From Halichondria panicea (taxonomy: Eukaryota; Porifera; Demospongiae; Suberitida; Halichondriidae), in the NCBI RefSeq assembly GCF_963675165.1, contig NC_087380.1:4083803-4147802 (forward strand): a stretch of 64,000 nucleotides of DNA. The letters are read 5' to 3'. How positions within the stretch are numbered: position 1 is the stretch's first letter; each line of letters starts with the position of its first letter. The position numbers and the translations under genes were made by a program. This document shows, piece after piece, positions 26,527 to 63,687 of the stretch. The notes beneath the pieces are model-generated. The model was not told the DNA's origin, searched no databases, and saw only the letters and a list, made by a program, of their open reading frames with translations.

Positions 26527-29417
26527 ATGGAATCCAAAAGTGAAGGAAGATTTACCTTTGAAGTTATTCATGCTCTCATAAGCAGGAACGAGTACCCTTC
26601 ATCCTTTAGTAAAGAAGACAAGCGTTCCCTGAGGCGGAGAGTTAAATGCTTTGATGCAGTGGATGGAGAATTGTACTATGTTGGATCTACCCAAGAGACA
26701 GTTGCCATAAATTACCTAGATATTATACATAATTATAGTTATCGCTATATATTTGTGTCTACATACTGTTACATGCAGTATTACATTTTCAAAAAAGGTG
26801 ATGAGAAGAGGCTTGTTGTGGAAGACAAGGAGCAGAGGAAAAGGATTATAGGAGCAATCCATGATCCAAGTCATATGGGAGTCAACAGAACATTGGACAT
26901 GATCACAGCCAAGTATTACTGGCCTGGTCAAACAAATGAAGTCAAAGAATATGTAAGTGAAGCCGGACTTAGCCTCGATTCCAGGCCGATTAAAATACGT
27001 ATTTTAATCGGCCTTGAATCGAGGCTAAGCCGGACTTTACTATAGTATTTCTTTTAGTGTATTTGCATGATCTACTTATTTCTTATAGGTGAAAACATGT
27101 ACCAAGTGCCAGTGTACCAATCCTAGACTACTAAAACCAGCATCGACTCTCCACCCAATACCAGTGACACCAAAGGTTTGGCATACAGTTGGGATGGATT
27201 TGATTGGCCCTCTGACAGAGACACCCAGGGGCAACAAGTATGTCATAACGCTCACTGACTATTTCAGCAAGTGGGCGGAAGCAGCCCCACTACCAGACAA
27301 GACAGCACATGGAGTAGCTAAATTCCTTTATTCTGTAAGTGCACTATAGCAATAATTATTATGCACATCATTTACAGCAAATCAATCTCTCTTAATAGGT
27401 TATGTGCAGAATGGGCTGTGCAGAAGTCATCATCACTGACCAGGGTCGGGAATTCGTCAACTCACTCTCAGCCCAGTTGTACCAGAAAACCAACACCCAG
27501 CATAGAATCACTAGCGCTTACCATCCTCAGACAAATGAATTAACTGAGCGGTTTAACCAGACTCTTTCTAGGTGTTTGGCTAAGACTGTGAATGACAACC
27601 AAGATAACTGGGACGAGAAGATCAACACGATTCTCATGGGGTATAGGGCATCACGTCAAGCATCGATTAAGCATTCTCCTTACTTCATGCTCTTCCAAGC
27701 TGAGATGCGTTTGCCGATTGATAGTGAGCTACTGCCCGGTCAGCCTGAAGAAAGAACCCCAGAAGAAGTTATTGAGCATCTTTTGAAGAGCCGTGAAGAA
27801 GTGTTCACAACAGCTGAAGCCAACATCAAGTCAGCACAAGGCAAACAAAAAGAAACGTATGACAGAAAACACCAGCAAGTCAGCACACTTAGCGTGGGTA
27901 TGAAGGTTTTGCTGGAGAATACTGCTCAAAAGCAGAGGAAGGGAGGAAAACTGGACTCAAGATGGCTAGGGCCATATTTCATCAACCGAGATTTAGGTAA
28001 GTTATTATTATTATTTTAGTGATAATAGTTATAATCTATACAGCCTGTATGTTATACAGCTAAAATGAATTCACATGCACTATATATATAATTATATATA
28101 TATTATATGTATATATAGGTAAGGGCTTATATGAGCTAAAAAACCTTTCTGGTCAAATACTCAAGAAGAAGGCGAATGTCTGTCGGCTGAAGTTGTTTAA
28201 TGAAAGGAGCTTGTCTAGAGACAATAAACAGCCACCAGAAGGCGATCGGCCACCAGAGAGAGACGACCAACAGCCACCAGAGAGAGACGACCAACAGCCA
28301 CCAGAGAGAGACGACCCACAGCCACCAGAGAGAGACGACCCACAGCCACCAGAGGGAGACGATCCACAGCCACAAAAGGGAGACGACCCACAGCCACCAG
28401 AGAGAGACGACCAACAGCCACCAAAGAAAGACGACCCAAAGAAAGAGGACCCACAGCCACCAAAGAGAGACCCTAAGTCAAACAAATGTAAGACTAAGGA
28501 TGTTTTCAAGAAGGTGAGTGTTGTGTCTCAATCAATTATCTTTTGTCTGTTACTGTACCTTTACTGTACTATTCTTACCTTATCATAGACCGAAGTACAG
28601 TGGGTCAATGAGCTCTCTCTCACGGCACATGACAGAGAGATACTACTCGCCCCAACAGGCATGCTGTCTGACAAGCATGTGGATGCTGCAATGATGCTTT
28701 TAAGTGGCCAATTCTCCAAAACATCTGGGTTGCAATCGTCACTTAAAGTGCAGTTTCGTCTTGGTTTTCGCCCAATTGATTTGGACAAGCGCACAAGGGT
28801 TCAAGGTGAGTTATGTAACTGTCTCAAGATTATGAAACAATTCTTTTTATTATATATTAGGAGTGCAGATACTGTTTGTGCCAGAACGTCATCACTGGAT
28901 CCTGACAAGTTGTATTGAAGGCAGTGTCTATGTGTATGACAGCCTGCAGACAGGCACTAAGGAATTTCCTAGATCTGTAGAAAATCAACTACTCCAGCTC
29001 TACCATCCAACACTTAGTCCACCACAACGTCAAGAAATTGGTTTACTGGCAGAGTGTCCGCCTGTCCAACAACAACAAGAGTCATATGACTGTGGCTTAT
29101 TTGCTATTGCATGGGCGTACCACCTCTTAGTTGGAGACTCTTTAAACACGCTGACACTGGACCAGCAAAAACTCAGACGGCATTTGGTAAGGTGCTTTGA
29201 AAAGAAGAAACTATCAAGGTTCCCAAAATCAAGGCAGGAGACCCCTCGAAGTGAGATAGTGTGGGTATCTGTAGTAGCTTCGTGCTACCAGTGCATAAGG
29301 CCTGACTCGTGGAACGACATGGTGCAGTGTGATGGCTGCGACAGGTGGTACCACATGAAGTGTGCACATATAAAGAAAGCTCCATTCAGTGACTGGCACT
29401 GTAAAGACTGCAAATAG
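26527..29417 (+). CDS. Ginger transposase: HHCC zinc finger, DD35E integrase, GPY/F, Ulp1 protease, PHD finger
   Basis: Exons: 26527 (or ATG 26449)-26952, 27089-27334, 27399-27996, 28119-28513, 28589-28805 and 28861-29417, all GT-AG with matching phases. Domains in order: HHCC finger (HDPSHMGVNRTL, CTKCQC), and integrase core with GMDLIGPL, ITDQGREF and NELTERFNQT (Asp, Asp, 35 residues, Glu). Then GPY/F (RWLGPYFINRDLGKGLYEL), a repetitive PPERDDQQ linker, a C48/Ulp1 protease (HHW, VYVYDSL, Gln, SYDCGLFAIAWAY: His, Asp, Gln, Cys all present), and a PHD finger (CYQC, MVQCDGCDRWYHMKC, WHCKDCK) ending at the stop. Integrase catalyses strand transfer. The protease probably acts on SUMO/ubiquitin-like targets or on the polyprotein. 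An in-frame stretch around 26700-26795 is less conserved and may be an intron. Confidence 0.85.
26970..27027. mobile_element. 58-bp hairpin mini-element with 9-bp target duplication
   Basis: Inside the first Ginger intron. TAGCCTCGATTCCAGGCCGA at the left is matched by TCGGCCTTGAATCGAGGCTA at the right; the whole is nearly one perfect palindrome. Both flanks are AGCCGGACT (26961-26969 and 27028-27036). The termini match the helicase/DUF6589 element at 57726-61317, so this is probably a minimal non-autonomous relative. Confidence 0.85.
28206..28480 (+). repeat. 27-bp coding repeat in the Ginger linker
   Basis: About nine degenerate copies of CCACCAGAGAGAGACGACC encode PPERDDQQ-type repeats, a charged disordered linker between the GPY/F region and the Ulp1 domain. 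Frames on both strands stay open through it. Confidence 0.85.
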
Positions 29418-30119: not shown

Positions 30120-33100
30120 TCAGTCACTCAGTACAGTCTTTGTATAGCGAATATAATTATAAAGTGATGCACAATGCATAGATACTATAGTATCTATACT
30201 AATCCCTCCTCCCCCTACCTGGGATCGGGACGATGACTCTTGCTCTCTTGTGTAACTTTCTCTTTGACGCTGCACTGTTTTGTTGAGATCCTCCCATTGC
30301 AGGTTAATATTTTTGTCCACATCTCTTTTTGATATCTCAGAATTTAGAAACTTAAACACCTCTTCAGTCACAGCTGAATCATCGAGGTTCTTGTCAGGAT
30401 GCCACTTAAGACAAAGACGTCTAACAGCTTTCCTTCTCTCTTCTTTTGGTAGCTTCCATATCTCATCAAGTTGACATAATAGAACATCTTCAATCTTTTT
30501 AAGATTCTTGCTCTGCACTTCTTGATGCAAATTAATCGTGTCCATGTCTGTTTCACCCCCATATGGTACAACATCTGTCCCTTCTGCAAGAATCTTTTCT
30601 TTCTTCAAACCTCTGAGGAATTTGTAGAGCTTAAGTACACCTACTTCGATTCCTTCTTCATCATCTTGGTGTGTCAATATTTTGTATTTCATACTGATTC
30701 GAGGGATGACATCAAAACTTTCACACCCTTTGGGCAAAATAGGGTACATAACCTCGACGTAAACAATGAGGTTCTCCATTACTTCATATCCAACAATCTC
30801 TCCAGGATGAAATACATTCTCAACTGCTTGATCAAGTCTATGATGCCAGCACTCTGCAACTTCTTTACTCAGTTTGAACGTGACCTCGCTCATTCTTTCT
30901 TCAGTCAGTGGAATTCTATTTACCTCTAAAATATCCTTCACTTCATGGGGATTCTGGACACTTAAGAGCTGAACAAGCACATCCTTCAATTTGGGACACA
31001 CATCATCAGTAATTAGCTGTGGTTGTTTTAGTTTACTTATAATTAGCTGAAATAATCTGTTGCACAAAGCCCGTACCACTTGGTGAATATTCTTGGCCAA
31101 CTGTGAGTCCAGGTATAAGCATCCGTCGGGAGTGTCTCCTGTTGTCTCTAAGTAAAACTTTGTGTCCAAATTACCAATCAATTTTTGGTTCTCTTTAAAA
31201 GTGACAACCATTCGCAAATGGCGAAAGGTTTGTATTGCTGTGCTGGCCAAAAACTCCCTAACAATAGATTCTACATTCTGCAGAGGTTGCTTGGCCTTGG
31301 TGTAATAGCGCACGCATGCAGAAACTGCCTGTGGCAGAATGTTGTTCATTTCAAACGTTTTAATCAAATCATTGCCTGCATCTGTATGGTCAATGGGTTC
31401 ACACTCCGGCTGAACCTTTAAGATACAAACTTTAGATAAGCCGATAGGACGAACAGTGAGTGACAGCATTTCACAGAAATCTCTCTCGAAAAGTTGGATC
31501 TTATTGTCTTTTGTTCTAATCTTTAGAAGGGAATAGCAGGTTTCCTCAAAATGAAATCTGCCCAAAAATGTGTCAGCGTCAACATATAGCAATTGTGTTG
31601 AGAGGACTAGTGTTGTGTTATCATTAGGTAAATACAGAGGAGAGAGGGTCTCACTCCCTTTTGAAACTAAAACACTGGATGATTTAACACTCAGCAACTC
31701 AATGAGCTCTTTAATTATTGCAAATACACATTTCCTTGTTTTCTGTTCTAGTACCTGCCCAGCAGAAAGTTCATAGGCTTTTTGAAGAACTAATTGAATG
31801 TGATTATAACCAATTGAAGACTCGACTCCAATCTGCTGAAGTATGAACTTTAGACATTCTAGCTGGCTATCAAGTATTTGAAGGAACGGATGATATTTAT
31901 CTGTTGAAATTGCACTGTAATGCAAGACACTGCAAGGCTTCACAAGGACTATTATGATGCTTGTGTGTCATCTCGAATGTACTATACACCGGAATGCAAT
32001 GCATATCTCTCAATAGCTGTATGTGAGCATCGTTAACATCGTCCTGTTTCGTTTCTAGCAATGTCAGGTTTTGTACAATCACTGACATAAGTGACGTGGC
32101 TTGATCAGAAGTAGGTATGTTGGAATCTGGATATTGATCAAAGTTTTGAAAGTTGCTGAATCGTTTCTTAGCACTAATAATTCTGCATGTTTTTGATTAC
32201 ATGATCAACTGTAGGATCACATGTAATGCCTAGTTTATCTGCTAATAGGCGGTGTTCACTATAAGTCAACGGACTCCAATTTTCAGGAAGATTAACTATC
32301 GGCTTTACAGTCCACAAGAAAGGTGTACAGTTTGTAATGGCAGCTTCACTGAGTTTGGTGAGGGAGCACATGCGCCTGTTCATCACTATATTGTTTGATC
32401 CACATTTTGCGCTACTGATCCATGTCACTTCTGGATGGATTTGAGTAGGCACAAATGGTATCTCTGCCACTTGATGTAGGAAATAATCGTCACTGTGCCA
32501 TTTTGCTTCCTTAGCACTGTCAGACGATAAATATTGAAGGAGAACTGTCGAAGTTTTTACAATGTCCTTGTGATTTCCTCCTGCAATTTCTTTGCAGAAC
32601 TCGAGAAACTCAGTGTGATTGACTGTGCACCTCAATCCGAGCTCTTTGAAGAAAGCTAGCCATTCAGTCCATGATGGAGAGCTCCTGAAATATTCAGGGA
32701 GAAATGAAAAGTGTTTGTGGAAAGTAAGAAATATGTCAATCTCATGATTGCAGTAGCTGTTAACTGGCAGCAATTTGTCTATACCAATACAGCGGAGTGA
32801 ACCTAATTTTTTAAGAAATCGTTTAGCCCTTGCTATGTTTTCTGTTTCACACTTGGATTTGATTTTCTTGTAAATCACATTTTTGTCGAGCAAGGTGACT
32901 CTAATATATCTTAGATGTTCATACCTGTTCATCTCGCTGATATAGGAGAAAAATTCGAAGATAAAGATGCAGTAAAGATCTTCTGCAGTGACAACATTTA
33001 CTTCAAGTTCCTCTGGAGCGCCAAAATCTGTCCAGGAACCACGTCCGTGCAGGAAGACAGCATTTGGAGTGTACTTGTTCCATTCAGAATATCCCACCTC

Positions 33101-36100
33101 ACAAGCATTGCTTGGCCAAACATATGCAGTTTTACGTTGTAATGCTCTGAAAACGCCATCAACACACTCAAATAGAGGAAGAGACCTTATATGGCTAAGG
33201 CTGTTTAAGTCAGTTCTGAAGTTAATGTTACTGAGGTAGGAAATGATAATACCAATCATTTCTTTGTCGATTACCACAGATAGTTCCTTCTCAATCTCTT
33301 GATTTAAATGGAACAATATTTTCAGAATAGCTGCAGTATCTTTTACAGTTGGACAAGACAGGTAAGCAGAACCAACTACGTTTGTGTCCAAAACTGGTAT
33401 GCCGATGTGTTGTAGGACCTGATAAATTTTAAGATATTCCCCATCCTCCTGCATAGAAATGGGAACGATTGGTATAAGAGTGTCACTGAAGGAATGTAAA
33501 CTGCCTGTGATACTCGGAAGAAGAGCCCATTCTTTCAAAATGTGAGGCATATTGAAACTAAAAACTGGATCCTCTGAAAAACAATTCCAGTATCTGATCA
33601 ATAGTTTCCTTGGCAGACTTTGGGGAAACTGAATTACTCGATTTGTTCTGAGGCAGTTAGGTAAGTGATTGCTTAAAAGCTTGTCGAAAAGGGTTAGACT
33701 ATACGCATTGTCTGATAAATGTACACATACAATAAAGTAGTTGCTGCTATACAAAACTTTGATCAGTACAGGGTGGAGAAAACAGTCTTGACTATCAGGA
33801 AAAAGATCAGAAAAGTTAGATTTGACAACCTTTGTATGTTGATGGAATCTTCTCAATATACCATCAGCTGTTAAGAGAAGGGGTTGGCCAAAAGGTTCTT
33901 TTGGGAATTTCAACTGCTCAGTAGGGCTGGTTATAGTCCTTGAGGACCCATCTGCAATTAGTTTGCTTGCACCTAGGAGGTATTCAGTGAAAAGTTTGAA
34001 TGTAGAAGTATCTCTGAAAACAGTGTCACTAATTCCACATGGGAATTTTCCCGTGTTGCTTGTTTGAGAGCAAAAATTTGAGTAGTATTCAAATACTGTT
34101 TGCGGGCTAGTCCTTTCGATTTTATTAGCACTCTCTTTTATGGCTTGGTTGAGCTGGTCTTGAATAAAGCTACCCGCTACTGTCAACTTCATGCCGATGT
34201 CTTCAATAATCGCTCTTAGTTCACCCCGTTTATCAACAAAAGACCAGAAGTATACTTGAGTAGATGGATCACTGCTTTTAGGATGGTGCCAATTTACTTG
34301 CAATTGCTTTGACTCACTATTCCTTGATCTTGTTGACATTGGTACAAGACTTGCAGGGTATTCCTTGTAATCAACTACAGCTAAAATGTTGTTGTTGCGG
34401 GCAACTAGTTTTTCATAGACACTCTCTGCAAATTTTATGAATAGTTTGTCCATTTCATATGTGGGTGGAAAAATCTCATAGTACTTCCTGATATCATGGT
34501 TTGCTATGTGCCATGCCTGGTACGGCTCAGTGGATACATAAAATGACTGACAATGCTCAAGAAGGATTGCATACGAAGAGGATATCGCTTGAAAGAGTTT
34601 ATTATTCCAAACAGACTGATGATCTTCTCTCTCCTCCTCGGTAGAACTCCACAAATTTCTACTCATTGAGTTCAAAATAAAATGTCCGTTTATATGCACT
34701 GGTAGTTTTGATGTAACTGGCAGAGGCAGAGGCAATAAACAAAACAATTTGCCCTTGAGCTTTTCCTCATTCGGAAGTGAATTCCATGGTGATAATAGAG
34801 CTGCAATCCCGTGCCTAGGCTTGATTGCTTCAATAAAACTCCATGTCTGTTGTTCATTCTCCATATCTCCTAATCCTTGTTGTATCAACCACTTGTTTTC
34901 AGTTGAAATTTCCTTTCCAGATGAGCACTGTACTTCACTGATGGTTAATGGGTATCTGATAACAAGAGATTTGTTTCCTTTCTTCTTGTTGAAGCTAGAC
35001 ATTGCTTTATGGAGCTCTTGACGCTTCTTTTGTGCTACTTCTTCTACTTCAGTGCAATACATTTTCGTGATGTTTATAGTGTTCCCATTTTCTGCTATAA
35101 CCATGAATTTTAGTTTTGTAACATTGTTAAGAAAAAGCATTGCTTCTTTCGCAATGGGTGCCCATTCTTCTAGCATTTTAAGCATGGTTCTAGATGTTAT
35201 AGGTTCACCAACAGGAGTTCCATTCTTGTGTCTAGGGATAATTTTTGAGTCTAGTAAATGTTCTTTTGTGTGTCTCAAAGGAAATCGAAATAAAGAGCCA
35301 CCACTAAGCTCAGGAGGGCAATTTTCAAGGCCAGACTGCAGAAAAGCGGAGCTCATATCAGGAAACAATTCCCAGAATCTCTGACTCAAACCATCAAATC
35401 TTCGTCCTGGAGAGAGCACATTAGCTCCAGGCACATACTTACAGTGTGGATCCAGTACACACATTGTTTCTCCTCCAGTGATGAAGCTAGGGCAATCAGT
35501 GAGGTGGTAAACTACACTGAAACCGTTGCCGTGACCAATGCTTTCATAATTAGTGCGTTTACTACCAAACCCCAGCTTCTGTATACCCCAAATATCTTTC
35601 TCTGCAAAGACACTATCGTTCCACACCAAAAGAGCTGGGCCTTGTAGTTTACCCCAATTCTGTGATAATACTCCTTGTTTTCCGTGGGTCCGCATATCCA
35701 AAATTATATACATTTTAGTTGCTTTGGCATCATCAGTGTTCTGTAGTAGCTCTTTAAGGATTGTAATATGCAACGGATAATCTCTTATGATGTTTTGAAT
35801 CCTACTGGTTAGTTCCTCATGCTGGGCAAATTCAACACTCTGAAATTGACAATGTTGACTGGAAGTGGCCACAAATTTCTCAAGTATTTTGCTTCTTCTT
35901 AGCTCCACACCCAGCTTAATTGCCAGAGTTAGTGGGATGATGCCATGTACATAAGTTTGTTTAGGGTCCCGTGGTGACCAGGGTGCGTCGTTGTAGACCA
36001 GTTTGTTTGAATCGCGTAAAACGAAATGTTCATCAGGAAGCATAAGTGTGGGGGCTACGTTTAATTTTACTTGGTGAAGTAAAGTAACAATAAAATGTAA

Positions 36101-39100
36101 AACAATCTGGCAACGCTCATCTACTGGCTGATCTTTGAAATCTTTCTTCATAGCTTTAAGAGCTTTCTCAATGTCTTTCAAGCAAAATTGTTTCTTGATC
36201 TGCAAAGATTCAATCAAACGTTTTCTCGATAATATACTTGCAGGTATTTTGTACAGATAAGGACCATCAATGGTACAGCCACTTCCAACAACCTCCTTAC
36301 TCACAAACTGCTTACCAGTCCATACAGATGATACTTTCAAGTGCTGAATATCCTTCTGAATATAATCTGATGAACTCTCTTTTGAATCAAGATCAGGTTC
36401 AAGTTGTTTGTCAAGGAAACCATACACTTGGTGGCACATTCTATCAATGGTTTCTACCAATTCTTCTGTGAGGGGTTGAGATACAAAAACTCGTTGTATT
36501 TCAGCAAGTTGTGCAATATCTTCATCCATGGAAGGTGACTTCCGTATGCTCATCACGAAAAGACTGTCTTTGTTAATATACCCACAGCCTCCATTTTCAA
36601 CAATAGCTTCATTCAAAAATGCAACTTGAGACCCAGCAAGATTAGGATTGATACCGGTGATTTCTCTATGCATATCATTGCCTACAATCATCAAGTCTTT
36701 ATCACACAGAAGTTCATGCCCATCTCCTTTCCATGGAAGAAGGTATCCTGTCGGTTTTGGGAGCACTGGTAAAAACGGAATGGAGGATAGCTCCCCACTG
36801 CTGGCTCTTTGGTATGACACACTTTGAGATTTAGCGTACTTTGGCAAGACTTCAAATTTAGTGCATGATGACAGAACAAGTTTTGCACACTTTAACGCTT
36901 TGGTTTTGTCGAAATAATACCGAGTTGGAATACTACGAGCACGCTCTACAAGCATATCATATGGAATAGCTTCACTAATCATGCCAAGTTTAAGTAATGC
37001 TGTCCTAGAAAGATGCCTTTCTGATAGTTCGTCACTAGGAAAATAGCTATCAGACTTATCATACAGGGGGGCAAAGTCTGCATCACGGTCAACAACTTCA
37101 GTGCATTTTCTGAGGACTTTTCCATCCGGTGTGCATGGTATGGAGGCATAATTCTTGAAATAATCATTTAACAAGTAGCTCCGTTCTGTTTCATCATCAT
37201 ACTCAGCTGCATACAGCTCAAGCATGCACTGAATGACTTCAGAGCGAGTGCTGAGAATTGACTCAAGAGAGCTCAAGTTTTGGAAAAACAGTTTAGTGAA
37301 AGCAGGTTCATCAATTGTAACTTCTTTTAAATTGAAATAAGAATGGAATATGATGGGTAGATCAATAATTGGCTGGTTTAGATACTTAACAACTTCAATA
37401 ACACATTTAGGAGTTGAAGATAATTGACACAAGATTCCAGGAACAAGAAATCTACTTTGATAGCCATGTAACCATTGTTTCAGGTATTCCGAGTAAAATA
37501 GTTGGTCAGATGAAATCAGTGCAAACAGTTTTGATATCATATACGTCCATGGATTATGCTGGGTTAATTTTTCATTTTGCGGCCACAAAACATGGAAATT
37601 ATAGCTCTTGATATAACGGTTGTTTTTCAATCCTTTCAATGCTATCAAAAGTGCATGATAAGCTCTTGGAATTACCCCTTGCATTAGTAAAACATTCCAA
37701 GTGACTTCACTGCCTGTAAGTGAGGTGGCTTCGTCTGAGGTCCAGATCCCCCTGCGATTATTGATCACAGCAAAGTTGCTACTTAAATGTACTGGTAGGC
37801 CAGTCTTCTGAGAGAGGGGTAGGAAACAAAATATCTCTCCTTGGAATTCTGCATCCACACTGTAGCTACCAGGAGTGCCCAGTGGACAAGAGACTGATGC
37901 AGTGAAGTATTGTTGGGAGTAATCATCAGTCTCACTTTCTTGTGATATGAGCCAATGACAGCTGTTTGATTCATTAGAGAGAGAATCGAAGCAAGTTAGT
38001 TCTCTAATCTCTGTACCAGCATGGAGTTGAATTGGTGCTTCAATACGCTCTCGAGTGATTTTCAACAAAATCTCTGGCGTGTTTTGTCCATGACTGATCG
38101 TTTGGAATGTAATAGTTCTCACGTGCTGTAGAAAAAGCAATAGAGTCGAGCTACTGTTCTTAATGGCAGATATAAGGTTCTGGACTATTGAATTTGAATA
38201 GCAGGTAGAACTAAGCTCACTAGGGTGTATCCTGAATGGAAGTCTAAATATTGTCCCTTCGTAATTAGATCGATCAAATCCAAACAAGCCATCATAAGGT
38301 GAGAGCTGACGCGAATTCGCAATGAACTTACTCGTGAAAAGAATTTTCTTACCTGGCCGAGAAAAATTCTTTATCTCTTTTCTTAGGTAGGATAGTGTTG
38401 GATCAAAAATATATAGTTTGTCTCGACTAACAAATGATGGTATATCTGTCATGTGGTACACAGAACAAATACCGATTCCAAACTTGCCAATCTTTAACAC
38501 TTTGTTGGCCTTGGTTGCTCCAGCTAGTTTTGTGATGTTAGTAAAATCATCTTCAGAAAAACTCTTGTTGTTATGAACAATTAACGCAGGACCATGAGCT
38601 TCTGCCATTCCTGAGAAAAACAGTTTCTTTGGATTTGTTTCATGCTGCCTAGCGTCATAGCAAATGTTCACTTCCGTAGCCTCTGCATCATCAGCGTTCT
38701 GCAGTAGTTCCTTGATAATAGTGAGTCCATCTTTGTAATCTCGGAGGATATTCTTCAATCGAGTGGTGAGTGGTTCGTGTTGACCAGCATCTTCAAAAGT
38801 GTCCTCAGAAGTATTCAAAAACTCTGACAATGAAACTGCACCAAGGTTATGTGCCATGCTAGCAGATGTGGTTATGCACAAATTGGTAGGAGTCCTTTTC
38901 TTCTGACGATTGCAGGTAATCCTTGAGGAATTTATTGTCCGTGTACACAACCTCCGAAGCTTGAACTAGCTGAGGCAATTCAGACTCTGTCTCTACTGGT
39001 ATCAGAACATCTTCTGGCATGACTTCGTCAGGAACTTTCTTATTTCCATTGTTTGTGAGCCAGTTTAGAATGTTCATGATCGTACTCCAAGCATCAATAG

Positions 39101-42100
39101 CATTAGTTTGTACATCGTCCTTGATCATTTTGAGAACGGAAACGATCTGGGCTTGACTAACAGTCGTTGCGACTCTAGAAGCTGAGCCAAAAAGTGTTGA
39201 GTATTGAGACAGAATGTCGGGTAGAATGTAGATGTACGGTTGAAGATCACTCTTGAAGGTGGAGTTTAGCTTAAAAGCTACTATATCTGGTGCTATAAAC
39301 TTCCTCTCTTTCTTGATATAAATCCACTCTGTGATAGAGTACAACGAAGCAAGATAGGAGACACCTCGACTATTCATGTAGTCATACACTTGAAGAACAA
39401 GCGAGTTCATAACATCAGCAGAGAGTTGATCCTTGTGCAAGAGTATCTCTTTATAGTGAGCGACCACATTCTGTGAGAGACTGTTAGAGTCAGCTGGTAA
39501 CATATTGGCAATTAGATCGGCAACTGCAGGGAACACAATGTAGACCTGTGAGCCCACTAGGCAGGGAATAGTGTTTTCAGTTGAAGGTGATAAAACCATC
39601 GAATTGCTCAGAGAGATAAAATGTGAGTTGAGGCCGTGTCCTTTCCATGAAATCTCTTCAGGATAACCAGACGGCTTATCACTGACAATTGGGAGCCAGC
39701 TCCAGCTGGTAGCTAGATACTTGAGAGCAGTCGAGAAGGTATAGCTTTGATAATGATCATTAGCTATTACATACCTTCCACCAGTTTGGTTATAAAAAGT
39801 AGATGTGCTTATGTATTTAAGCACTGCCTTGGCCCGGCTCAGCTTTAAGCTGTCAACACGTTGTGGATTTGAGCTGCAAGAACAACTAATGGAGTAGATA
39901 ATGTCAAGGACTCGTTGTGGGGTGACTGCGACACAGAGACCACAGGTTTGTAAAGTTTGAACTCTTCCTTTCGTGTTGTAAGGAGACTGAGGGAATACAT
40001 CTTCTCCGCTATACAAAGCCAAAATATCAGTATCAAAAGGAGTGAATAGTTCAGAAGGAGTCTTTCGTCCATTACTTGTTTTTACGAATTGCAAGCTCTG
40101 AAGGTAACTGGCCATATTGTACTCTCTGGAGTTGAGGACTTGGAACATGTCCAACACTTCTGGCATTAGCTTGTCAATGAGGTGGTCAGGAAAAGACTTG
40201 CTTTTAATGAGCGGGAACACATGATTGACAAGAAGTCTGAAATCAGATACAAATGGAATGCTTAGAGATTGCAATAGCTGTAGCTGATAATGGTTTCCCC
40301 GGGACAGAATAATTAGGTTTGAAGGCAGGTTTGCAACATTGAAAGCACATCTGTTAGGTTCTCCTATTGCCTGCTGTGTTACTGATTTTGATTCTGCTGT
40401 GTTAACAGAAAACAGTTCTTCGGATGAGTTTAAAGCAGATGAAAAGATGCAAACGTTCTTTAAGACCTTCTTTCTCACCATAGAAGGAGTGTAAGTGCTA
40501 GATAGGAGAAACACTCTCATGCTATCAGCTTCCTGAGCTGTGAAAGCAACTCCTATGTAATTTGATGTTGATGCTATAGCATCCAATAAGTTGTTTGTGT
40601 CAAAAATCTTTATGTTTGATGAAAGTTGCCTATGGTATACATAGCTAAATTCACTTCGTAGACAAACCTTGATTTTCATTTTGTAGAGAGCAGAGAGCAA
40701 ATTTCCAGAGCAAGACGTGTCGACATAAATAACAGCGTGTGCACTATGAAGAGGAGCAAGGTGAAAATTTATTTTTGAGCTGGAGGTAGAGATGTAGCAA
40801 GGAACCACAAGCTGACAAACAAAATGTTGTAGATTTTTTTTATGCAACCAATTCCAGAACGTCTGAAGCCAAGTGGAGGGAATCTGAGAGTGGGGAATGG
40901 ACACCAGACTGTTTCTGCTTGAAGGTAGAGCCTGAGGAAGGAGATGAGCAACCTCTCTCTCAGTGAGGAGCCGGAGCTTTGTCTGTTGACTAGCAGCCAC
41001 AGAATATAGACTTTGTTGAAGCTTTGTATCATCTGATACGTCGACAAGTAAGTGGTCCAAGTTAGGAAGCAAGGATCGTGGACAATCATCTGAGCAAAGG
41101 AAAACTGTCTGCTGTTCGGAAGTTGCATCAAAGTTAGTGAAGCTACCATTTGCTAAGGGCAGAAGATTCAATCCTCTTAGATCGTTGTAGCAACTGTCGG
41201 AAAGACAGTATGTTAAAATTACCATCTTGCCAATAGGGTCAATGCTAGAATAACATTAAGGGTAGTTGCGAAATTTGGAGCGAGCTAGCATTGGAGACAT
41301 CTCTGTGACACCGACTTTAGTGTGACACATTGCTCTCCATATTCTTGAAGGGACTGTGACTAGTTGTACAGCACAATCAGCGAGAACTCGTTTCATAATG
41401 GAGGGAAGCTTGCTGCTTTCACTGATAAAGGTTGCTTGAGAGATGACAATCCAGTTCCCAACAACTGGAATTGTGTCGATCTTCTCAGTATAAACAACTG
41501 CTTGCTGAAACAACGCACTGAACAAAGGACGGAGAATCTCAGAAAACTGGTTGTTTACAGTATTCACATCAGGCCAGGCATTGTAGAACTGATCATGAGA
41601 AATATATTTTTTAGCCTCTACTAGAAGCATAGCATAACAAGGTGGGAGGAGCTGACTAACAAGAATCTTGTTCCAATTTGCTGTAGGATCATTTCTTCTC
41701 TCAATTCCCGGCCACTTTAAAGTACGTCGCTCGTCGTTTAGCCCAAATGTTCCATTAACATGAACCGGTAGTCCAGATCGACGTAACCTCTATTGGCATG
41801 GGAAGGAAACAAAATATCCGACCCCCAACAGAACTAGTACCTAGCTCCAAAACTGTACCGACCCAAGGAAATGTACGCTGTTTGGCTGCAGCTGCTTGTA
41901 CTGTAGAGTTCCCTGATCCGACGCTTTTAGCTATCACCCAATTGCTCTGGCCAGCTTGGTTCTTCCTATGATTGTTGTCAGTCAAAATTACAGAAAAGGT
42001 AGCTGTAAAAAAAAATACTTGGGAAATTGAGTATGGTTGTTGAGAATGAGCTTGCCGAAGTTGCTGCATGAACAATTCACGCTTGGAATTAACTGATGCT

Positions 42101-44299
42101 AGACAAGCTGGAGCTATTTCCACACAGAAGGATGTGCTGTGCTGACCACTCTGTGAGATGTGCACTACTTGGATCTTGCATACTGACTTCAGAAACAAAA
42201 GCAAATACTTTGCCTCCTCTCTAAGAGCATCAAGGAGCTCTTGTAACTTTTGAATGTTGTATATTTTGTCCGAGAGACTGGATGCTTTTGTGCGTAATGG
42301 CAGTCGAAAGATAGTTTGCGAATACCGGGCTGAGTTTTTGTCGAAACCTGCCAAACCACTGAGTGGGGTGATGAAGTCAGATGACTGGTCAATAAGGTTA
42401 GCCAGACTGAATGCCTGCCCAGCTTCACCTTTCCACACTTTTTCTTGCGGTTCAAAACAAGCTAAGCGATTGCCACTGACAATCATTGGCATGTCTGAAA
42501 AGAGAGAATTTAACTTTTTATTATAATACCAAATGCTGCAAACTGCCAATATTCAGACATGCCTCTGTTTGAAGATCCTAAAATACGGTACAACTCTCAA
42601 TAATAATAATTATACTTATCTTATACTTGTCAGTATGCAATGTGCATGCAATGTGCATACATCTTCGTCTGACAATACAACATCATTAGAGATTACGTAT
42701 TTAAAATCATTAGAGATTAAGTATGTGTTATAGTAACGATCAAAATCATAGGAATAATATTGTGAGTTGCATAAGCAGTCTCACAGTGAACACAGGCAGC
42801 ATAACTAAATGACAAATGAATGCACTACATTGTTCAAACAGAGGCATGTAATATTAAAATTGTAAAATTGTACTCTCTCGATTAAACGAGCATACTTGTT
42901 TAGTCACGGCGTGCACTTTTTTGTTACACGCCACCGGATGTGGAAACGCCCGAGTTTTACCTTTAGAAGCTAACTCTAACCTCTTCCTGGCCACGTCTAT
43001 AACCGGTGATGATATATATGGCATTAATTATTGAGCATTTGCAAAATCCATTCAGTAGTTATATAGATTGAATAATGGCTGGTGCATGTGCTGATTGGAG
43101 TTAGTCTTTTAAAGTTATGTACAATAAACGCCCATATGAAATCTATTTGAGGTATCATTAATTTTTAGTGATTAATGCACTGCACGTTTAACCTAATAAA
43201 TAGTATACCCACATTTTGAACGAGAACAAGAGCTGTATATAATTATATATATAGCGGGTTATTTTCGTATGGTATAAATTTTCGTCTTTTTCGTATTTAG
43301 AGCATTAAATCATCCGAAAATTAAAACTATTACTGTGAAATAGGTCTTACGTTGTCATCATTTGAGCTGTACGAAAATTATAATTTAGAAATATTAAATA
43401 TTTAAACACATATAATAATTATATAGTTTATATGAAAATTTGCCAATTAAAATTACCCGCTATAATACGGTACTTAACCGGTGGTTATCAACATGCAGTA
43501 TTGACATGACCCACATTTTTCAATGGACCCACCTGTGAGATGATAGACAGAGTTGAATCCAATCCCAAACCTTCCAGCTTTGAAGGGGTCCTCGGCCTTG
43601 ATACTCTGCTGCAAGCTCTGTATTCCCTCCCAGTCCTCTTCTGTAAAGCAGGCATCATTGGTAGCTATCAGAGCTGGGCCCTGGAACAAGGCTAAGTCAG
43701 GATGAGGGAGGTTGGAAGTGCTATGCTGTCTCTCATCAACATAGAACCACACTGTTGTAGCTCCAGCATCATCGGCATTCTGGATCATCTCCTAAAATAT
43801 ATAATTATATGAGCAGCCATCTCAGCAACTAACTGAGGAGCAATAAAACTAAAATTTGAGGCATGACAACATTTTTGGGAATGGCATTTCAGTATAGGAA
43901 ACATGAATCGTGGACTAGAATCAGTGCATGTGATTCACAGCAATTAAAGAAGCCTGCATGGAGTCTTAGAAATATGGCTCATGCACAGCAGAGTAAACAA
44001 AAAAGCCCAAACCACACAATTGTGTGTAACGAGTTGCCTTGAATAAAATCCCCGTGTACTTTCAAATGTGCCACGTAATTTTGTATAATTATGCCTGAAT
44101 AATTATCAGCAACAAACTTTGCAACCATTAGTGTGCAGGCTGACTGCGCAAAAATTCATCCGAGCTAACATGCACACATGAACAGTGCTTACCTTGAAGA
44201 TTTGTCCATCAGGGTACCTCTCAAGAATACTTTTTATGGTAACAGACAGGGGAGGCCTTCTCAGTCCAAACTGCTCTGACTTAGTCACCATGAAGTGTG
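30120..44299 (-). CDS. SACS-like: sacsin-like chaperone: three ATPase repeats and C-terminal J domain, with apparent lesions
   Basis: Sacsin is a giant cytosolic co-chaperone. Exons read downward: 44299-44193 (EQFGLRRPPLSVTIKSILER), 43791-43533 (EMIQNADDAGATTVW, GRFGIGFNSVYHLT), then one exon from 42494 to 30120 of about 4,120 codons. Human SACS likewise has a giant coding exon. Sacsin ATPase repeats: first as above; second near 38.75-38.45 kb (KELLQNADDAEATEVNICYD, KIGKFGIGICSVYHMTD); third near 35.77-35.45 kb (KELLQNTDDAKATKMYIILD, GHGNGFSVVYHLTD, a weakened G-box). The J domain is near 30.5-30.35 kb (RRLCLKWHPDKNLDD, HPD present). No HEPN domain follows. Frame breaks lie near 41775, 38862, 32176 and 31960, with an in-frame TAA at 41256-41258. 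Each is a small indel or point change within otherwise long open frames. Upstream exons are described separately; the 44299 acceptor (ATTTTAG) opens in phase 1. Confidence 0.88.
43250..43463. mobile_element. palindromic MITE in a sacsin-gene intron
   Basis: The left end TATAGCGGGTTATTTTCG and the right end (reverse complement TATAGCGGGTAATTTTAATT) are inverted. The interior is AT-rich with TTTTCGT blocks. Likely related in type to the 17385 element. Confidence 0.55.
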
Positions 44300-45498
44300 C
44301 TAAAATTATGGAGGATCGTATATAATGCATGCATCCATTAATTCACGGTATAGTGAAGGCACATTAACGTACACACAACGTATAATTATATAGGTGGTTA
44401 TGCATACAAGATTCAATCCACGATGCACATGCATGCAAGATTATAGGCTCCTTGACTGCTGCATAATGAATCATTAGGCTTTACACAACCACAAAAAGTG
44501 TTACTAAGATTGTTACAGAGCACTAAAATCTAACCCTTGATCCGCCTAAGTTATAATAGCATAATATTATAATTATATAGGATTACATGCCGCCATGAGA
44601 TCAAGATCAATAACCACTCAAAAATAAACTCAAGAATTAGAGGTCAATTCTCGCGAAATCAATAAGTCACTTCGCACGAACGCTTTTCAATGATATATTA
44701 TTTACATACACACAGTGAAAACTAATCCAAAACCAATCTGAATGACAAACAAGTGAATCAGCGAATTAACCACCAGTATAAGCTAACAAACTAACCAGCA
44801 AACCATATTTAATATCAGTGTATGGTTCTAAAACCAGGCCCACATGACATGCATACAATCTTATCCTTCAGGGAATGCGGCTGTAGTGCAAAGGAAATGA
44901 GTAAAAATGATGTCGTAAGTCTAAAGGAGGTGATGTAATTATGCATGACATAAAATGACAGTTATGAGCAGTGCGCACAAGATAGAATGGTGTAAGTGTA
45001 TACACTACATAACTACATGCAGCCTTCAGAACAAAATGCCGTATTCTAGACCACACCCACCCCACACACATGCACACATACACACACACACACACAGCCG
45101 CCAACTCACACACACACGCAGATGTTTGAGGATGCGATGAAGTTAAAACAGGCTGAAAAGCATGCTCTTGAGAAGCAAGCGAGGACACTACAGCAGCGTC
45201 TGCTTGAGGATACAGACGAGCATGCATGACTATTGTGCATATTATTGTCTGCATGCATGTGACTGCCTGTTATTGCATACTATACTCATGCACAAGGAAT
45301 GTACAGCTAAATAGATACATTTTGAGCCCGAGGGAAAGAGATTTCTGAGCCTTTCTTGGTGCTTCCAGGGCGGATATATTACAGTTATACAATGAAAAAA
45401 CAACTCATAATATTGAGGAAAATTCACCCCACCTCTATTTGGTTCACGAGAGTAGATCTAATAATAATATCCTGTCAACAATACTATATGAAAGACTC
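44300..45498. other. intron between mini-exon and first sacsin exon
   Basis: No minus-strand exon is recognised. CA-rich stretch at 45052-45117. It holds a possible plus-strand exon at 45122-45229. Confidence 0.4.
45122..45229 (+). CDS. possible terminal exon encoding a coiled coil (plus strand)
   Basis: After an acceptor-like CACACGCAG the frame MFEDAMKLKQAEKHALEKQA continues to LLEDTDEHA and a TGA. The heptad-like spacing suggests a coiled coil. It lies within an intron of the opposite-strand DEATH-sacsin gene. No upstream plus-strand exon is visible, so it may be a stranded exon or chance. Confidence 0.3.
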   Translation: MFEDAMKLKQAEKHALEKQARTLQQRLLEDTDEHA

Positions 45499-45535
45499 AC
45501 CTGAAAGCAACGCATTGCCAGCTTCACCCTTCAGG
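45499..45535 (-). CDS. 37-nt mini-exon linking the middle domain to the sacsin part
   Basis: Acceptor CTGTAG, donor GTGAGT. Only phase 0 is open: GLKGEAGNALLS plus one base. It exits in phase 1, exactly what the sacsin exon at 44299 needs (G plus CA gives Ala). An exon of identical length and splice sites (GLQDKAANTSRS) lies at 56856-56892 with similar flanks, showing that the unit was duplicated. Such conservation of length supports a real exon. Confidence 0.5.
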
Positions 45536-46363
45536 CCCTACAGTATTTATATTGAGAGTTACTACATTCAGTCATAAAAATGTGTGTAGACACTTGAAGC
45601 CATGCAGTGTATTGTATAAGCTAGAAACATGCAGACAATAATTATGGACAGAGCAATAATGTTGCATTACATAATCAAGCTATATCAGTCTATATACATG
45701 AGTTATACTCCACTGGCATAATAACCTTATCTTAAATCAAGGGCGTATAAAAGAGAGAGGGCATGCAACAGCTTAATTGCGAGCAAAAACTAAAGTGGCG
45801 GTGGAAAAACACTAGATTTTTGTGTACAGTACATACTATTCATGTATCCGGTCTGTGGTTTTGGTTTCTGCTCGCACGTACGTAAAGGGTTGATAGTCAG
45901 TTGCATGCCCCCTTTCTTTTTATACGCCCTTGCTAACGTATAATGACCGTTCCCCAAAGGTTCAATGAAGAATGTTGGGTGTGGGATTATACATGTACCG
46001 GTACATATGGTATTTATATATAAGAACGTACAGGCATGCATTTTATTTTTACTGTTCAGAAAGAGAATTCACTATACGTACATTTGTAATATTATCTTCT
46101 GTTAGTTTATGAGTCGTAGTAGTTAACACCACTATCATTGCTATACCTGCTACATCGAGACAGGAGTAAAAAACAAACAAAGAAAAGTGTAGCCGACAAC
46201 TCGAAAATTGTGAAGTTTCTGGCACTTAACCTAGATCTATAATTATAGCAGATATACATGACTACAGCTTACACTTTGTACACTCACAAACCCCCTTATA
46301 TTTATATAATGTACTGAATCAGATATGCTAGAATTGAAGTTTGCAGACAATAATTATAAGTAC

Positions 46364-47109
46364 TGAGATATTACGTCCCTTGAGAACAATTTGGGTATAA
46401 ATCACCTCAGCTTTATAATGAGTATTCCCACAGCGTAGGTCGATGACTCCTTGACTCTTCAGAGCATGTTCTTGATCAGCTTTTAGCGGAAAGATATCAC
46501 TTGTTATGAACTGGATCGGTAATGAAAATGTGAGCTCGACACAGCCATCATCAATTTTACAAAGCTTTAAAACACCTTTATTTAAATGCAAGATTGAGCA
46601 TAGATTCCACTCGAATAGCTTCAGTCGACTCACTTCACATTCATCGTAAGTAGAATCAAGCTTTACAATCAGATTTTCTCCAGAGCCTGAACTAATATTT
46701 CCTTTCACTAGTCGCCTCCTAGCATACCTAACAAAATTGGTTTTGTAAAGTTTCATATTGTCTTTATCCTCGTCCGTTCCTAATCGGCTTGTTATCTGCT
46801 CAATAATATCATAGTCGAAGAAGGAAAAATAGTCACCAATAATTCGCCAAACTTCTGGGATAGTTGAGCATTGATCTAGATTATTTCTTTGAGCTCTAAA
46901 AACACATTGATTTCCTCCACAAAATACCTTCTTTAGAGAGCTAAGGCCCATCAAGCAAGCAACTACAGATTCTTTTGCAATTCCACGAGTTTCAAGTGAA
47001 CAACATAGTTGAGACACTAGAGTGTTGAAATTGATTTCCATCTTCATCGAATCTACTTCTAACATTGCAGTGTCTGGAAGCATATTTGAGACAAGTTGGC
47101 TGCTTGCAC
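46364..47109 (-). CDS. middle domain of the DEATH-sacsin gene
   Basis: A single exon of about 249 codons opening in phase 1 at a TTTTCATGCAG acceptor. Recognisable blocks are LVSQLCCSLETRGIAKESVV, IIGDYFSFFDYDIIEQITSR, LGTDEDKDNMKLYKTNFVRY and FPLKADQEHALKSQGVIDLR. I associate this arrangement with domains next to DEATH or NACHT modules in sponge and cnidarian proteins, but I cannot give it a domain name. The likely 3' end is TCA before GTACTT at 46363 (phase 0, fitting the mini-exon). An alternative donor GTAATA at 46374 would be phase 1. Confidence 0.65.
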
Positions 47110-47129
47110 CTGCATGAAAATATAAGCGC

Positions 47130-49040
47130 ACATAATTATTCTTACTATCTTACGATTACTTCATACATGGCTCATATACTGATGATAAAAGTATCAAAAT
47201 AATGTATGAGTTAGCCATGCGCATGCACAGTATAATTATGCCTCGAGGCGTAGCCGCACGAGGGATACGGTAAAGCCAGAGGACGTACGAAAGAGTACTT
47301 CAATTAAGCTCGATTACGTGCAAAATTCAAGTAAAGTTATCATTGCATGCATGTGACTAATTAACTCAATTTTAGCTTAATCGAGGTAATCGTGTCGGAA
47401 CTCCTCTGCGGTAAAGCTGACTGTGTGTGTGCATGTGTATTCCAGGCGTAACTGCATGCTCAGCTTCTATATAGGCTTCTATACGTTCTCTTGGGTTTTG
47501 ATTTGTGGACTCATACGTTGAATAAAAAGTTTGTGCGAACAGATGATGCTATGAAAGATTCTGAAAAGACTGCAACAGCCGCCACTGTGAGTCAAACTAG
47601 CCATAACTCGAGAAAGAAGCTTTAGTTTGCAAATCTACGAACCAAATCCAAGAGATCATGGCTAGAAGCCTATGAAAGCTGTTAGTTTTCGTCGCATTGC
47701 AACCGTAGCAGTTACAGCTGGAATACACAGACACACATGCAGTCAGATACACAGTCAGCTTTATATCGTAGGCTACGTCTTGAGCCACTACAGATTTTGC
47801 TACGCAATATATAGTCTAAAAACTACTCAGGAGACTTTGATAGCCTTCAACTGGCTTTAGTTTGCAAATCCATGAGTCAAAATCCAAGGCTATAGAGGCC
47901 TATAGAAGCTATTACTTGCACCTGCATTGCTACGGTAGAGCAGTTACATGCACGCACACACGCACACACATGCACACACACTACAATACACCTCACTGCA
48001 CATGCTGAGGCATAATTTTATATTAACTGCTTTCATTTCGAAATTTCCGTTACTGCATATGCATGTATACGCTTCCATTAGATATTATACACATGACGTA
48101 TATATAGCTTACCACGTGATGTATCACCTCCATTTGTGCTTTGAGATCTCTACATGTGCATGTACATGTCGTATGAGTTTAAAAAAAGTATATAACACTG
48201 CACGAGTATAATTACTACTCTATTATTACTGAACAACAACATGGTATGGTTATAAAAATGAATGCTCTCATTATAATGTGTGATGTATAATATGTAATTG
48301 CATGTGTATGTATTCACAGACATCAGGCTGCACACAGGCAGCAAATAATTAACCAAAACTAATTACCAATTTATATTGTATAATGACTTAAAAGGGCATT
48401 GGTTATACCTCAAGTTCCTCTCTCTCACAACCTATAATTATGTGTGCATGTACGGTACAGTGGAAAGTATATACATTTATATCCTGTTGCTACGTTGTTG
48501 CCAAGTGCAATATGCAGCACAATGCACTAACCATGCACAAAAAGATAGATCTATACTGTGCAGTGACGGTCAGGCTAAATAGCAGCAGCTCAGACACGCA
48601 CTATATAATTCAACAACAAACAGTTCCAGGCCTCCAATGTCAGATTGACAATGCATGGCCTTCACCAAATCCAGTTTGTCAATGTCTGAGCTACCAATAT
48701 TAGCCTGACTATCGCTGCACAATAGTAATCTCTTTCTGTTATTTGGGGGGTCACTAACTCCTATAAAGGGGTCACTGCATCCAACACGGGTGTCAGAGGA
48801 TTTATTGGCCCCCATGCATGGAGTCATTGTATATATATATATAGGACTCAGTGCCATGACCCCCTCAGATACTGAGTCCTAACTAAAAATAGCCAAACAA
48901 GACAGCATGGATCCCACGACAGAAGGGGGTCACTGGATTCTATAATAGAATTTCACTGAATCCTAGAACCCTGTGTCCGGGGTCACAAATCCAGTGAACC
49001 TGACCCAGTGATCCTACGACACTATGTATGCTGTTGTAGT
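47130..49040. other. intron with repeats
   Basis: Between the DEATH exon and the middle-domain exon. The block TTTAGTTTGCAAATC with following sequence is duplicated at about 47600-47730 and 47855-47980. Inverted AATTAAGCTCGATTACGTG blocks flank about 47300-47400. GGGGTCACT-type short repeats lie at 48740-49020. No exon seen. Confidence 0.45.
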
Positions 49041-49067
49041 GAATTCAAATACAATGTAGCCACTTAC

Positions 49068-49710
49068 TTTCAATGAATACCTCTATCTCCACAGCTACAT
49101 CATTTCTCTTCACTGTTGAGTGCCTGAGAGCAGCACATATGCCTCCCCATGTTAGAGTACCGGACTGTAGCTGAAGAGCTAGAACTTCATGCAGGCACAC
49201 ATCATTGTTACCAAGGTACGTTTCACGATAGTTGGTTAAGTCAGTATAGTCAAGTTCCAGAGCTAGTCCAAAGTTGAACCAGTTCGGACTAGCACTCCGT
49301 GCCTTCTCGTACACCTCAAGTATGTCAGAGAGAGATAGAACAGTATCTGCATCACAATGACAACAGTTTTTTTGTGAACCAATACCGTATTACTAGAATG
49401 TTTTGCGAGCATCAAACATTTGCGAACTTTGCGAGCAATTAAATCCGCAAAACCTAAATTATTACTAGTAAATACACATGATCCTTTCCAGAACGCAATA
49501 GTTAGATCGCAAAGGGTCACATTTTCTGCTGATTTGGCGCGCTCATTCGCAAAGGTTTTTCACCCGCAAAATATTCTAGTAATACGGTATAACTTAACCA
49601 CAGTATTTAACAGCAAATTGAAACGTACTCAGTCCAGGTCCAGGGTTTATCTCCACATCTCCAGCCAATAATAGGTGAAAGAGAGAGAAAAGTAATACAA
49701 CTATCATCAT
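49068..49710 (-). CDS. leader with 2A-like motif plus DEATH domain (first two exons)
   Basis: Exon 1 (49710-49629) encodes 27 residues: a hydrophobic leader MMIVVLLFSLFHLLLA followed at once by GDVEINPGP, a full match to the D(V/I)ExNPGP 2A ribosome-skipping motif. Donor GTACGT, phase 1. Exon 2 (49346-49068, acceptor GATGCAG, donor GTAAGT) encodes 93 residues with DEATH-fold hallmarks: PNWFNFGLALELDYTDLTNY, then LALQLQSGTLTWGGICAALR. 2A motifs inside N-terminal signal sequences have been reported for sea urchin NLR proteins and in sponges; skipping there yields either a cytosolic or a secreted protein. The same dual targeting is inferred here. Exon 2 leaves in phase 1, matching the exon at 47109. 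The DEATH domain suggests innate immune or cell-death signalling. Confidence 0.75.
49383..49589. mobile_element. 207-bp MITE with 25-bp TIRs
   Basis: TACCGTATTACTAGAATGTT at the left and its near-perfect complement at the right (AATATTCTAGTAATACGGTA). The interior has GCGAACTTTGCGAGC. It lies in the intron between the leader and DEATH exons. A degenerate copy lies at 56929-57093. The TACCGTAT terminus is shared with the 17385 element. Confidence 0.8.
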
Positions 49711-50586: not shown

Positions 50587-50786
50587 NNNNNNNNNNNNNN
50601 NNNNNNNNNNNNNNNNNNNNNNNNNNNNNNNNNNNNNNNNNNNNNNNNNNNNNNNNNNNNNNNNNNNNNNNNNNNNNNNNNNNNNNNNNNNNNNNNNNNN
50701 NNNNNNNNNNNNNNNNNNNNNNNNNNNNNNNNNNNNNNNNNNNNNNNNNNNNNNNNNNNNNNNNNNNNNNNNNNNNNNNNNNNNNN
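50587..50786. other. assembly gap (200 N)
   Basis: Exactly 200 N, flanked on both sides by CTCACTC, so the gap probably hides a simple repeat. True size unknown. Confidence 0.99.
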
Positions 50787-50927: not shown

Positions 50928-51922
50928 CTACGAGAAATACCAAGCGCTAAATGCTACAACACAAGCGACCCCTATCAACAGGAATGTTCCAGTACTCCAG
51001 CATGATTTTGTAGCAGGCTTGCGAACAGGCTGCTTAGTGGGCTTTTCGGGAATCGTTTCAACATTTGGCTTTTTCTCAGGGTCTGGTTTTTTCTCAAGAG
51101 TTGATTCTTTTTTCACTGGCTTTTCAATTGGCTGTTCAATTGGCTTTTCAATTGGCTGTTCAATCGCCTGTTCAGTTTCCACAGTAGGGATAACTTCAGG
51201 CTTTTTCTCGGGCTTAGGCTCAGGCTTTCCATAGATTAAATCAAGGAGCTTGTCAACAACTTCAGCTACATTCATGCCGTCCTTGGCACTGGTCTCAAAG
51301 TACTCTATGCCCAGTGACTGGGCCAGCTCCATGCCTTGCTCCTTGGTGATCACTCTGCTCTCAGTCAGGTCAGACTTGTTCCCCACTAGAATTACTTCAG
51401 GATTATCCAAATTCGCTTCTTTGATTCGGGTCATCCTGTATATATATGTGTGAGTATTATGTGAACGGCTGTGTTTATAGATGCCGGATCTATCGGACAT
51501 ACTTACATGTCATCCTGCAGTACATATAATATACAGCAATGCATGCTAGGGATTTATGGTAACGTAAACCACACCTCGCCCTCGTGCTTGGTGGGTTTAC
51601 TGCCATAAATCCCTAGAACCATATAACATAATATATATTATACAATGCATTGAATGATGCATGCATGGGCCCTTTAACTAATGCAATGGGACGATAATCA
51701 ATTGCATGAAAACAGGATATATATATATGAACAAGGTCCTGGATGCAGTATTATTATGATGAATGGCCTCACTTTCCCTCAGCATCCTCTAGTGCATCTT
51801 TAGCTGTGAGGTCCATTATGATAATGAATCCATTAGATCCTCTGAAGTAGGCACTTACTATTGCTTGATAACATTCTTGGCCAGCAGTATCCCACAACTG
51901 AAGTGCGTATGTTTTACCACCC
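50928..51922 (-). CDS. Rab-like small GTPase with C-terminal membrane anchor, N terminus missing
   Basis: Two exons: 51922 to about 51774 (acceptor TTGCAG, phase 2; donor GTGAGG) and about 51435-50928. They encode LWDTAGQECYQ (G3 switch II), VILVGNKSDL (G4) and YFETSAKDG (G5), typical of the Rab family. The tail is unusual: about 75 residues rich in Pro, Lys and Glu with IEQPIEKP repeats, then SCWSTGTFLLIGVACVVAFSAWYFS-like hydrophobic residues up to the stop. Rab proteins normally end in prenylated cysteines; here a tail-anchor replaces them. The G1 P-loop and switch I exons are not found upstream, where the foldback element at 52452-55674 lies. The gene may be truncated, or its first exons may be more distant. 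Confidence 0.75.
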
Positions 51923-56855: not shown

Positions 56856-56892
56856 CTGAACGCGATGTATTGGCAGCTTTATCCTGCAGGCC
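56856..56892 (-). pseudogene. duplicated 37-nt mini-exon
   Basis: Same length, splice sites and reading frame as the mini-exon at 45499-45535 (GLQDKAANTSRS). The flanking intron is also similar (TCTGTCAACAATACTACATG at about 56825 versus 45470). No neighbouring exons of a second DEATH-sacsin gene are seen in the window. Confidence 0.45.
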
Positions 56893-62990: not shown

Positions 62991-63082
62991 ATCTCATGAG
63001 TGGCCCATGCACACACTTTATTCCCCATGCAGTACGGTGGATAATGGTACACAACTTGCGCATGATTTGAATACGTACATAC

Positions 63083-63502: not shown

Positions 63503-63687
63503 ATTAGCTAGCTTTTAGCTGCTAGCCAGTCTAGATATAATGATCTAGATGTTTAATGCAAAATTCCCTAGTGAATAAATCCATAGGCCAGATTCGAGGC
63601 TAAATCTATACAATGTATACGTATATACATGTACTTGATATAAGACTCACAAACATAGCTGAATCAGCAATAAACTACAATATAATT

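Follow-up and report, generated by a model that had tools for sequence, protein, structure and literature searches.

A DEATH/TRADD-N-like module and a broken sacsin copy lie side by side in the sponge Halichondria panicea

The window analyzed here is a 64,000-nucleotide stretch of the Halichondria panicea genome (C4:4083803-4147802, within a 131-Mb, 39-contig assembly) whose minus strand had been read in an initial annotation as a single gene for a DEATH-fused sacsin. Sequence, Pfam, and AF2/Foldseek confirmed the blocks of that proposal, all on the minus strand and in the claimed order: 2A leader, DEATH domain, middle domain, 37-nt mini-exon, sacsin exons, and J domain. The neighborhood is real and interesting, but it was wrongly taken for a single intact gene. 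We judge the chances to be slightly better than even that the window copy (copy A) consists of two neighboring modules, the upstream one probably a member of a sponge adaptor family with a 2A leader and DEATH and TRADD-N-like domains, and the downstream one a decayed copy within a sacsin gene cluster. With about the same narrow preference, we read the locus as one half of a duplicated pair in which the sacsin of copy A was lost and sacsin starts at its own ATG.

The core motif of 2A/StopGo sequences is DxExNPGP. The leader exon (49629..49710, minus strand) contains it as GDVEINPGP after an ATG and a hydrophobic stretch; it translates as MMIVVLLFSLFHLLLAGDVEINPGP, ends at a phase 1 donor (CTGA/GTACGT), and was defined from sequence and conservation in paralogues; the 2A activity is putative. 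The following exon (49068..49346, minus strand, phase 1 to phase 1) encodes the DEATH domain. The Death model PF00531 was matched by four of 11 members of the family, with a best E of 0.012, but not by the window member. The AF2 model of the exon is a six-helix bundle with a death fold (mean pLDDT 92). In Foldseek, Fas-FADD came first among the PDB matches, and the eight rows with a probability of 1.00 (TM to query 0.61-0.77, E 0.057-0.22) were without exception structures of death domains, Fas-FADD predominating; nothing had E < 0.05, and nothing reached 0.001 or better.

The middle-domain exon (46406..47109, minus strand), delimited from Pfam, AF2 topology, and the splicing of relatives and NCBI-named proteins, encodes a helical bundle (model residues 13-132) and a TRADD-N-like domain (residues 145-226). 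The latter is modeled with the beta-alpha-beta-beta-alpha-beta, RRM-like topology of that fold, and the tiny residue plus Ser/Cys expected at its beta2-beta3 turn is present as an invariant Gly-Cys. PF20694 (TRADD-like_N) was matched by five members out of 13, at best with E 0.0025; the window member gave E 0.12 and 12.6 bits against a cut-off of 23.7. The middle-domain profile had no match among PDB sequences and the model had no Foldseek match at E 0.001 or better; TRADD-N was absent among the Foldseek matches listed and could be present among further rows. The earlier domain calls (2A, DEATH, sacsin, and J) hold, with the middle domain now recognized as a helical bundle plus a TRADD-N-like domain.

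The middle exon ends in phase 0 at 46406/46405 (GAG/GTGATT), where the coding similarity of relatives stops. The NCBI-named H. panicea proteins P0001 and P0002 splice at the homologous codon, directly after HNYQAE and HYPAE, and therefore the window donor is at 46406 and not at 46364, as had been annotated. A splice matrix scored the two sites at +10.0 and -3.95, respectively. Its underlying sites, 22 distinct donors and 18 distinct acceptors, came in part from the window and its paralogues, and they retain a few P0001/P0003 junctions that join repeated segments and may be spurious. Relatives, NCBI-named proteins, and the matrix together rule out the donor at 46364. Beyond 46406, a read-through tail (46325..46405, minus strand) ends in a stop codon, shows indels relative to the C2 copy L038, and is followed by an AATAAA at 46047. 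Judging from the sequence, a stand-alone adaptor could have its 3' end here, at the tail and AATAAA. Conservation of the phase 0 donor in the family counts against two separate modules because a transcript should then continue into another exon. It favors the main alternative, to which we give a substantial but less than even chance, namely that a true fusion decayed in the window: a twin locus, copy B, would be a working 2A-DEATH-TRADD-N-sacsin gene of ~4,700 residues, and the window would hold its dead duplicate.

The middle domain of the adaptor exons has 99 genome matches. Among the loci inspected, DEATH-middle modules are followed by what appear by eye to be ankyrin repeats at L033, L042, L043, and L044, and the module of P0002 is likewise joined to ankyrin repeats. 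Several of the Halichondria DEATH-middle loci fit the plan that Kaur et al. (2021; PMC8195603) describe for Amphimedon queenslandica, where TRADD-N units of the NCOA6 clade comprise 1-3 N-terminal Death-like domains, TRADD-N, and a C-terminal part that varies, ankyrin repeats or SH3-LRR being the most frequent. TRADD-N fused to sacsin is listed in that paper under the DEDD2/TRADD-like clade; the Halichondria modules are likened to published ones by architecture. For the DEATH and middle exons, dN/dS of A or B against the family member L033 was 0.25-0.27, indicating constraint. Between A and B, DEATH gave 0.54 and the middle domain 1.31, from 4 synonymous and 19 nonsynonymous differences in the latter, so recent constraint is not visible, and the middle-domain value was counted in favor of two modules. 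An apparent second locus with DEATH and a giant ORF, at C2:2.64 Mb, was discarded because its 3127-aa frame derives from a masked stretch. Also on the minus strand of the window, at 50928-51990, are exons of a Rab/Ras-like GTPase (50928-51509 matches PF00071 at E 4.7e-15), which carries a Pro/Glu/Lys-rich tail and a terminal hydrophobic segment and is possibly tail-anchored; a run of 200 N lies at 50587-50786.

The sacsin part begins with exon 1 (44193..44299, minus strand), which has an in-frame ATG 8 nt past its acceptor. Exon 2 (43533..43791, minus strand), bounded by splice sites, encodes the 5' part of the first SACS domain (PF25794, E 3e-34), a domain found by Pfam in three pieces of the window. 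The main exon spans 30197..42495 (minus strand, 5' bound approximate) and includes a J domain at ~30342-30443 in which the HPD is seen; its DnaJ match (E 6.4e-5, 23.4 bits) falls under the curated cut-off of 27.8. Human SACS has SACS repeats and a J domain and lacks a DEATH domain. The window shares the repeats and the J domain with it, and HEPN is found in other sacsin copies of the genome; the vertebrate protein differs in its N-terminal ubiquitin-like domain (PMC3710099) as well as in being without DEATH.

The main exon is clearly broken. In an alignment with P0006, an intact relative of 4279 aa, frame changes near 41780, 38865, 32182, and 31958 divide it into five segments. Relative to copy B, it carries +4 nt at 41782, -2 nt at 38866, and an in-frame TAA at 41258-41256 where B has GAA. 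The sacsin match stops at ~30197, just before HEPN, and the HEPN stretch of another copy, L026 (HEPN E 1.1e-6), matched nothing else in the window at the nucleotide level. Although the 5' exons are open, DEATH and sacsin do not share one open translated frame in copy A, and the product of ~4,600 residues deduced from it falls with the four frame changes, the TAA, and an end that precedes the C-terminal HEPN. These lesions were counted in favor of two modules. By our own grouping of SACS matches into nine loci, seven have an open frame of 4178-4346 aa around the match, and the window copy and a copy at 4.03 Mb are split. An intact fusion obscured by assembly errors would agree with the open 5' exons and with a dN/dS of 0.34 between A and B over the sacsin stretch, which makes any decay recent, but it would have to account for five separate lesions of differing kinds plus the missing end, and we regard it as highly improbable.

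Several other features were seen around the sacsin end. On the plus strand, an integrase-like ORF, a Ulp1-family protease, and a PHD finger lie at 27399-29417, beside the point where the sacsin match stops. These ORFs look like a mobile element, which may have caused the sacsin break. Tandem repeats coding for PPERDDQ-type units lie at 28190-28480 on the same strand. About 67 kb from the truncated copy, at ~4.0460-4.0469 Mb of C4 (L027 1-851, reverse complement), is a sacsin 3' end with HEPN-like sequence that is 99% identical to window 30559-30197 in the overlap and has no adjacent SACS match listed.

Copy B (C4:4154000-4178400) lies ~43 kb away and is co-linear, with insertions, to window 50159-37635. 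In it, a frame of 495 residues, with GT/AG throughout, runs from the leader across DEATH, middle, and mini-exon to the end of sacsin exon 2, and the main exon has an open frame of 4264 aa, of which 3817 aa were read; no lesion was found in the sequence read. The corresponding exons of copy A are also in frame, over 489 residues, with GT/AG at each join. This order at two loci, open through exon 2 in both, argues against two modules, and the stop-free join and long open frame of B favor the fusion. Copy B is the only sound candidate found for it, and the single-gene proposal, while broken in the window, is a reasonable hypothesis there. However, the B frame was assembled only through exon 2, and exon 1 of B has two possible acceptors, of which the upstream one keeps the frame and the other, right at the ATG, would break it. 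Multiplying one phase in three by the probabilities of a stop-free 12-codon mini-exon and of an open run to the ATG, simple arithmetic gives a chance of ~0.17 for the fit even if the mini-exon and sacsin 5' end are non-coding, and the phase fit at the decisive join is thus weak evidence. Protein searches, which cover H. panicea incompletely, returned no fused model of this species; we set this aside because no short model of these loci was returned either.

The interpretation of the join depends largely on the mini-exon. Its bounds, given earlier as 45535/45499, are corrected to 45501..45537 (minus strand, 37 nt, donor CAG/GTGAGT). Within 46400-44310, its donor was the best of 162 GT sites and its acceptor 6th of 99 AG sites by the splice matrix, a pattern of strong donor and lesser acceptor that would suit a first exon, which needs a donor only. 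The element has six genome copies. Two are at the DEATH-sacsin loci A and B, and one follows the DEATH-middle copy on C2 (L038, C2:209500-219400), where no SACS domain was found. Two others lie upstream of sacsin genes (C4:4.015 and 4.037 Mb) for which no DEATH or middle domain was found in the 7.4-7.7 kb read, and a second window copy (56856..56892, minus strand) is identical over all 37 nt to the one upstream of L026, a DEATH-less sacsin gene. Each of the six measures 37 nt, contains no stop in the proposed frame, and has an AG before it. The constant length and the absence of stops fit a coding exon and favor the fusion; with the AG and the C2 copy, they count against two modules. On the other hand, the element also precedes DEATH-less sacsins, and its copies form two clades separated by 7 fixed differences, of which only one affects the third position of a codon, so there is no visible sign of coding constraint. 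These DEATH-less copies and the clade split were counted for two modules. Around the mini-exon, A and B are 97-100% identical (gaps left out), which resembles recent conversion and carries little information. We lean, not strongly, toward the mini-exon being a spliced 5' leader of sacsin itself rather than a bridge. In addition, L038 was found to have a frameshift in its middle domain and Pro-rich ORFs further downstream, and at three sites (window 61546-63577 on the minus strand, L026, and L027) the mini-exon element has a small gene, possibly Myb/SANT-like by eye, immediately upstream.

The sacsin start codon points in the same direction. All nine sacsin paralogues have an in-frame ATG 22-34 codons ahead of the conserved motif RYPDGQ, although these are not nine independent events because the genes are related. 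Seven named sacsin models of other animals occur among the 120 relatives listed, and six of them (P0056, P0065, P0086, P0099, P0120, and P0121) start at the same point; the seventh, P0094, begins further in and counts against the argument. At seven of the nine sacsin loci, reading 5.6-8.2 kb upstream of exon 1 revealed no DEATH module. None of the sacsin relatives listed (120 of 123) has a precomputed DEATH domain, but most of them seem to be predictions from a single frame, in which such a domain could not appear. The shared ATG, the named starts, and the DEATH-less loci were all counted for two modules, and sacsin may start alone given the mini-exon without DEATH at two genes, the non-codon-like substitutions, and the ATG in 9/9. 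A sacsin start exon with its own promoter and no link to the DEATH exons had been named in advance as an observation that would refute a single gene, and these data come close to it.

A further explanation is that gene conversion produced a mosaic, with adaptor and sacsin modules shuffled as neighbors lacking any functional link and their conserved order reflecting segmental duplication only. Identity between A and B is indeed uneven (gaps left out): the upstream stretch, the 5' introns, and the DEATH exon stand at 89-94%, the middle exon at 96%, and sacsin at 90-95%, with only a 73% patch beyond window 37635. In addition, the window sacsin shares 99% identity over its 3' end with another sacsin copy. 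A mosaic would leave the conserved donor and open phase unexplained, however, and it overlaps with the two-module explanation. We hold it to be very unlikely as a separate account. As a side observation, non-coding window 46405-44946 is 98-100% identical to copy B (gaps left out), above most flanking coding exons, and the sequence suggests recent gene conversion around the mini-exon.

In the two-module reading that we prefer, a DEATH module would have been placed before a sacsin gene once, and the pair then duplicated into copies A and B, after which A would have lost its sacsin frame. Sacsin would most likely be translated from its exon-1 ATG with the mini-exon as spliced 5' leader, and the adaptor exons would form a separate or alternatively ended transcript. 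The 2A leader would presumably divide the adaptor products between secretory and cytosolic fates, the DEATH and TRADD-N domains would assemble signaling complexes, and the intact sacsin copies would work separately as Hsp90-like, J-domain, HEPN quality-control proteins. There is precedent for such a leader in the sea urchin, where Roulston et al. (2016; PMC4981915) describe an N-terminal 2A-like sequence that splits its product between exocytic and cytoplasmic routes, a dual targeting also recounted in PMC12846837. The Halichondria leader resembles these signal sequences in being N-terminal and ending in the 2A core; it differs in standing on a sponge DEATH/TRADD-N protein, and its 2A activity is putative. 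Were the fusion correct instead, which is the less-than-even case set out above, the Hsp90-like modules would sense or remodel clients, the J domain would recruit Hsp70, HEPN would act on RNA, and DEATH/TRADD-N would nucleate a death or immune complex. It is more doubtful still that copy B is live as one protein of ~4,700 residues that StopGo sends partly to the secretory route and partly to the cytosol, coupling Hsp90-like/Hsp70/HEPN quality control to a death adaptor in two compartments.

DEATH-fused sacsins were published for Amphimedon in 2013, and sponge modules of Death and TRADD-N in 2021. The initial annotation had called for DEATH plus sacsin in one protein to be sought in other sponges, and such proteins are in print: Anantharaman et al. 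(2013; PMC3710099) report multiple sacsin-like proteins fused to DEATH in Amphimedon queenslandica, e.g. gi 340377463, and propose both a suicidal response to stress from unfolded proteins and a connection with conflicts between host and pathogen. Their existence in Amphimedon makes a fusion in Halichondria more plausible from the outset, and the published animal TRADD-N-sacsin fusions also favor it. The Halichondria locus shares with the Amphimedon proteins, compared here by description only, a sponge host and DEATH and sacsin modules, there in one protein (PMC3710099) and here possibly so. It also has a 2A leader and a TRADD-N-like domain, in which it may differ from them, and its window copy is broken and without HEPN. 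No published 2A-DEATH-TRADD-N-sacsin protein was found in the open-licence papers searched. If the fusion is false, the locus is a caution that matching splice phases between neighboring genes are weak evidence for one gene. If the copy B fusion is true, Halichondria would be the second sponge after Amphimedon with a death-module sacsin, the apparently intact, broken, and DEATH-free copies in one genome would serve as natural controls, and the 2013 idea that sacsin feeds unfolded-protein stress into cell death would become testable.
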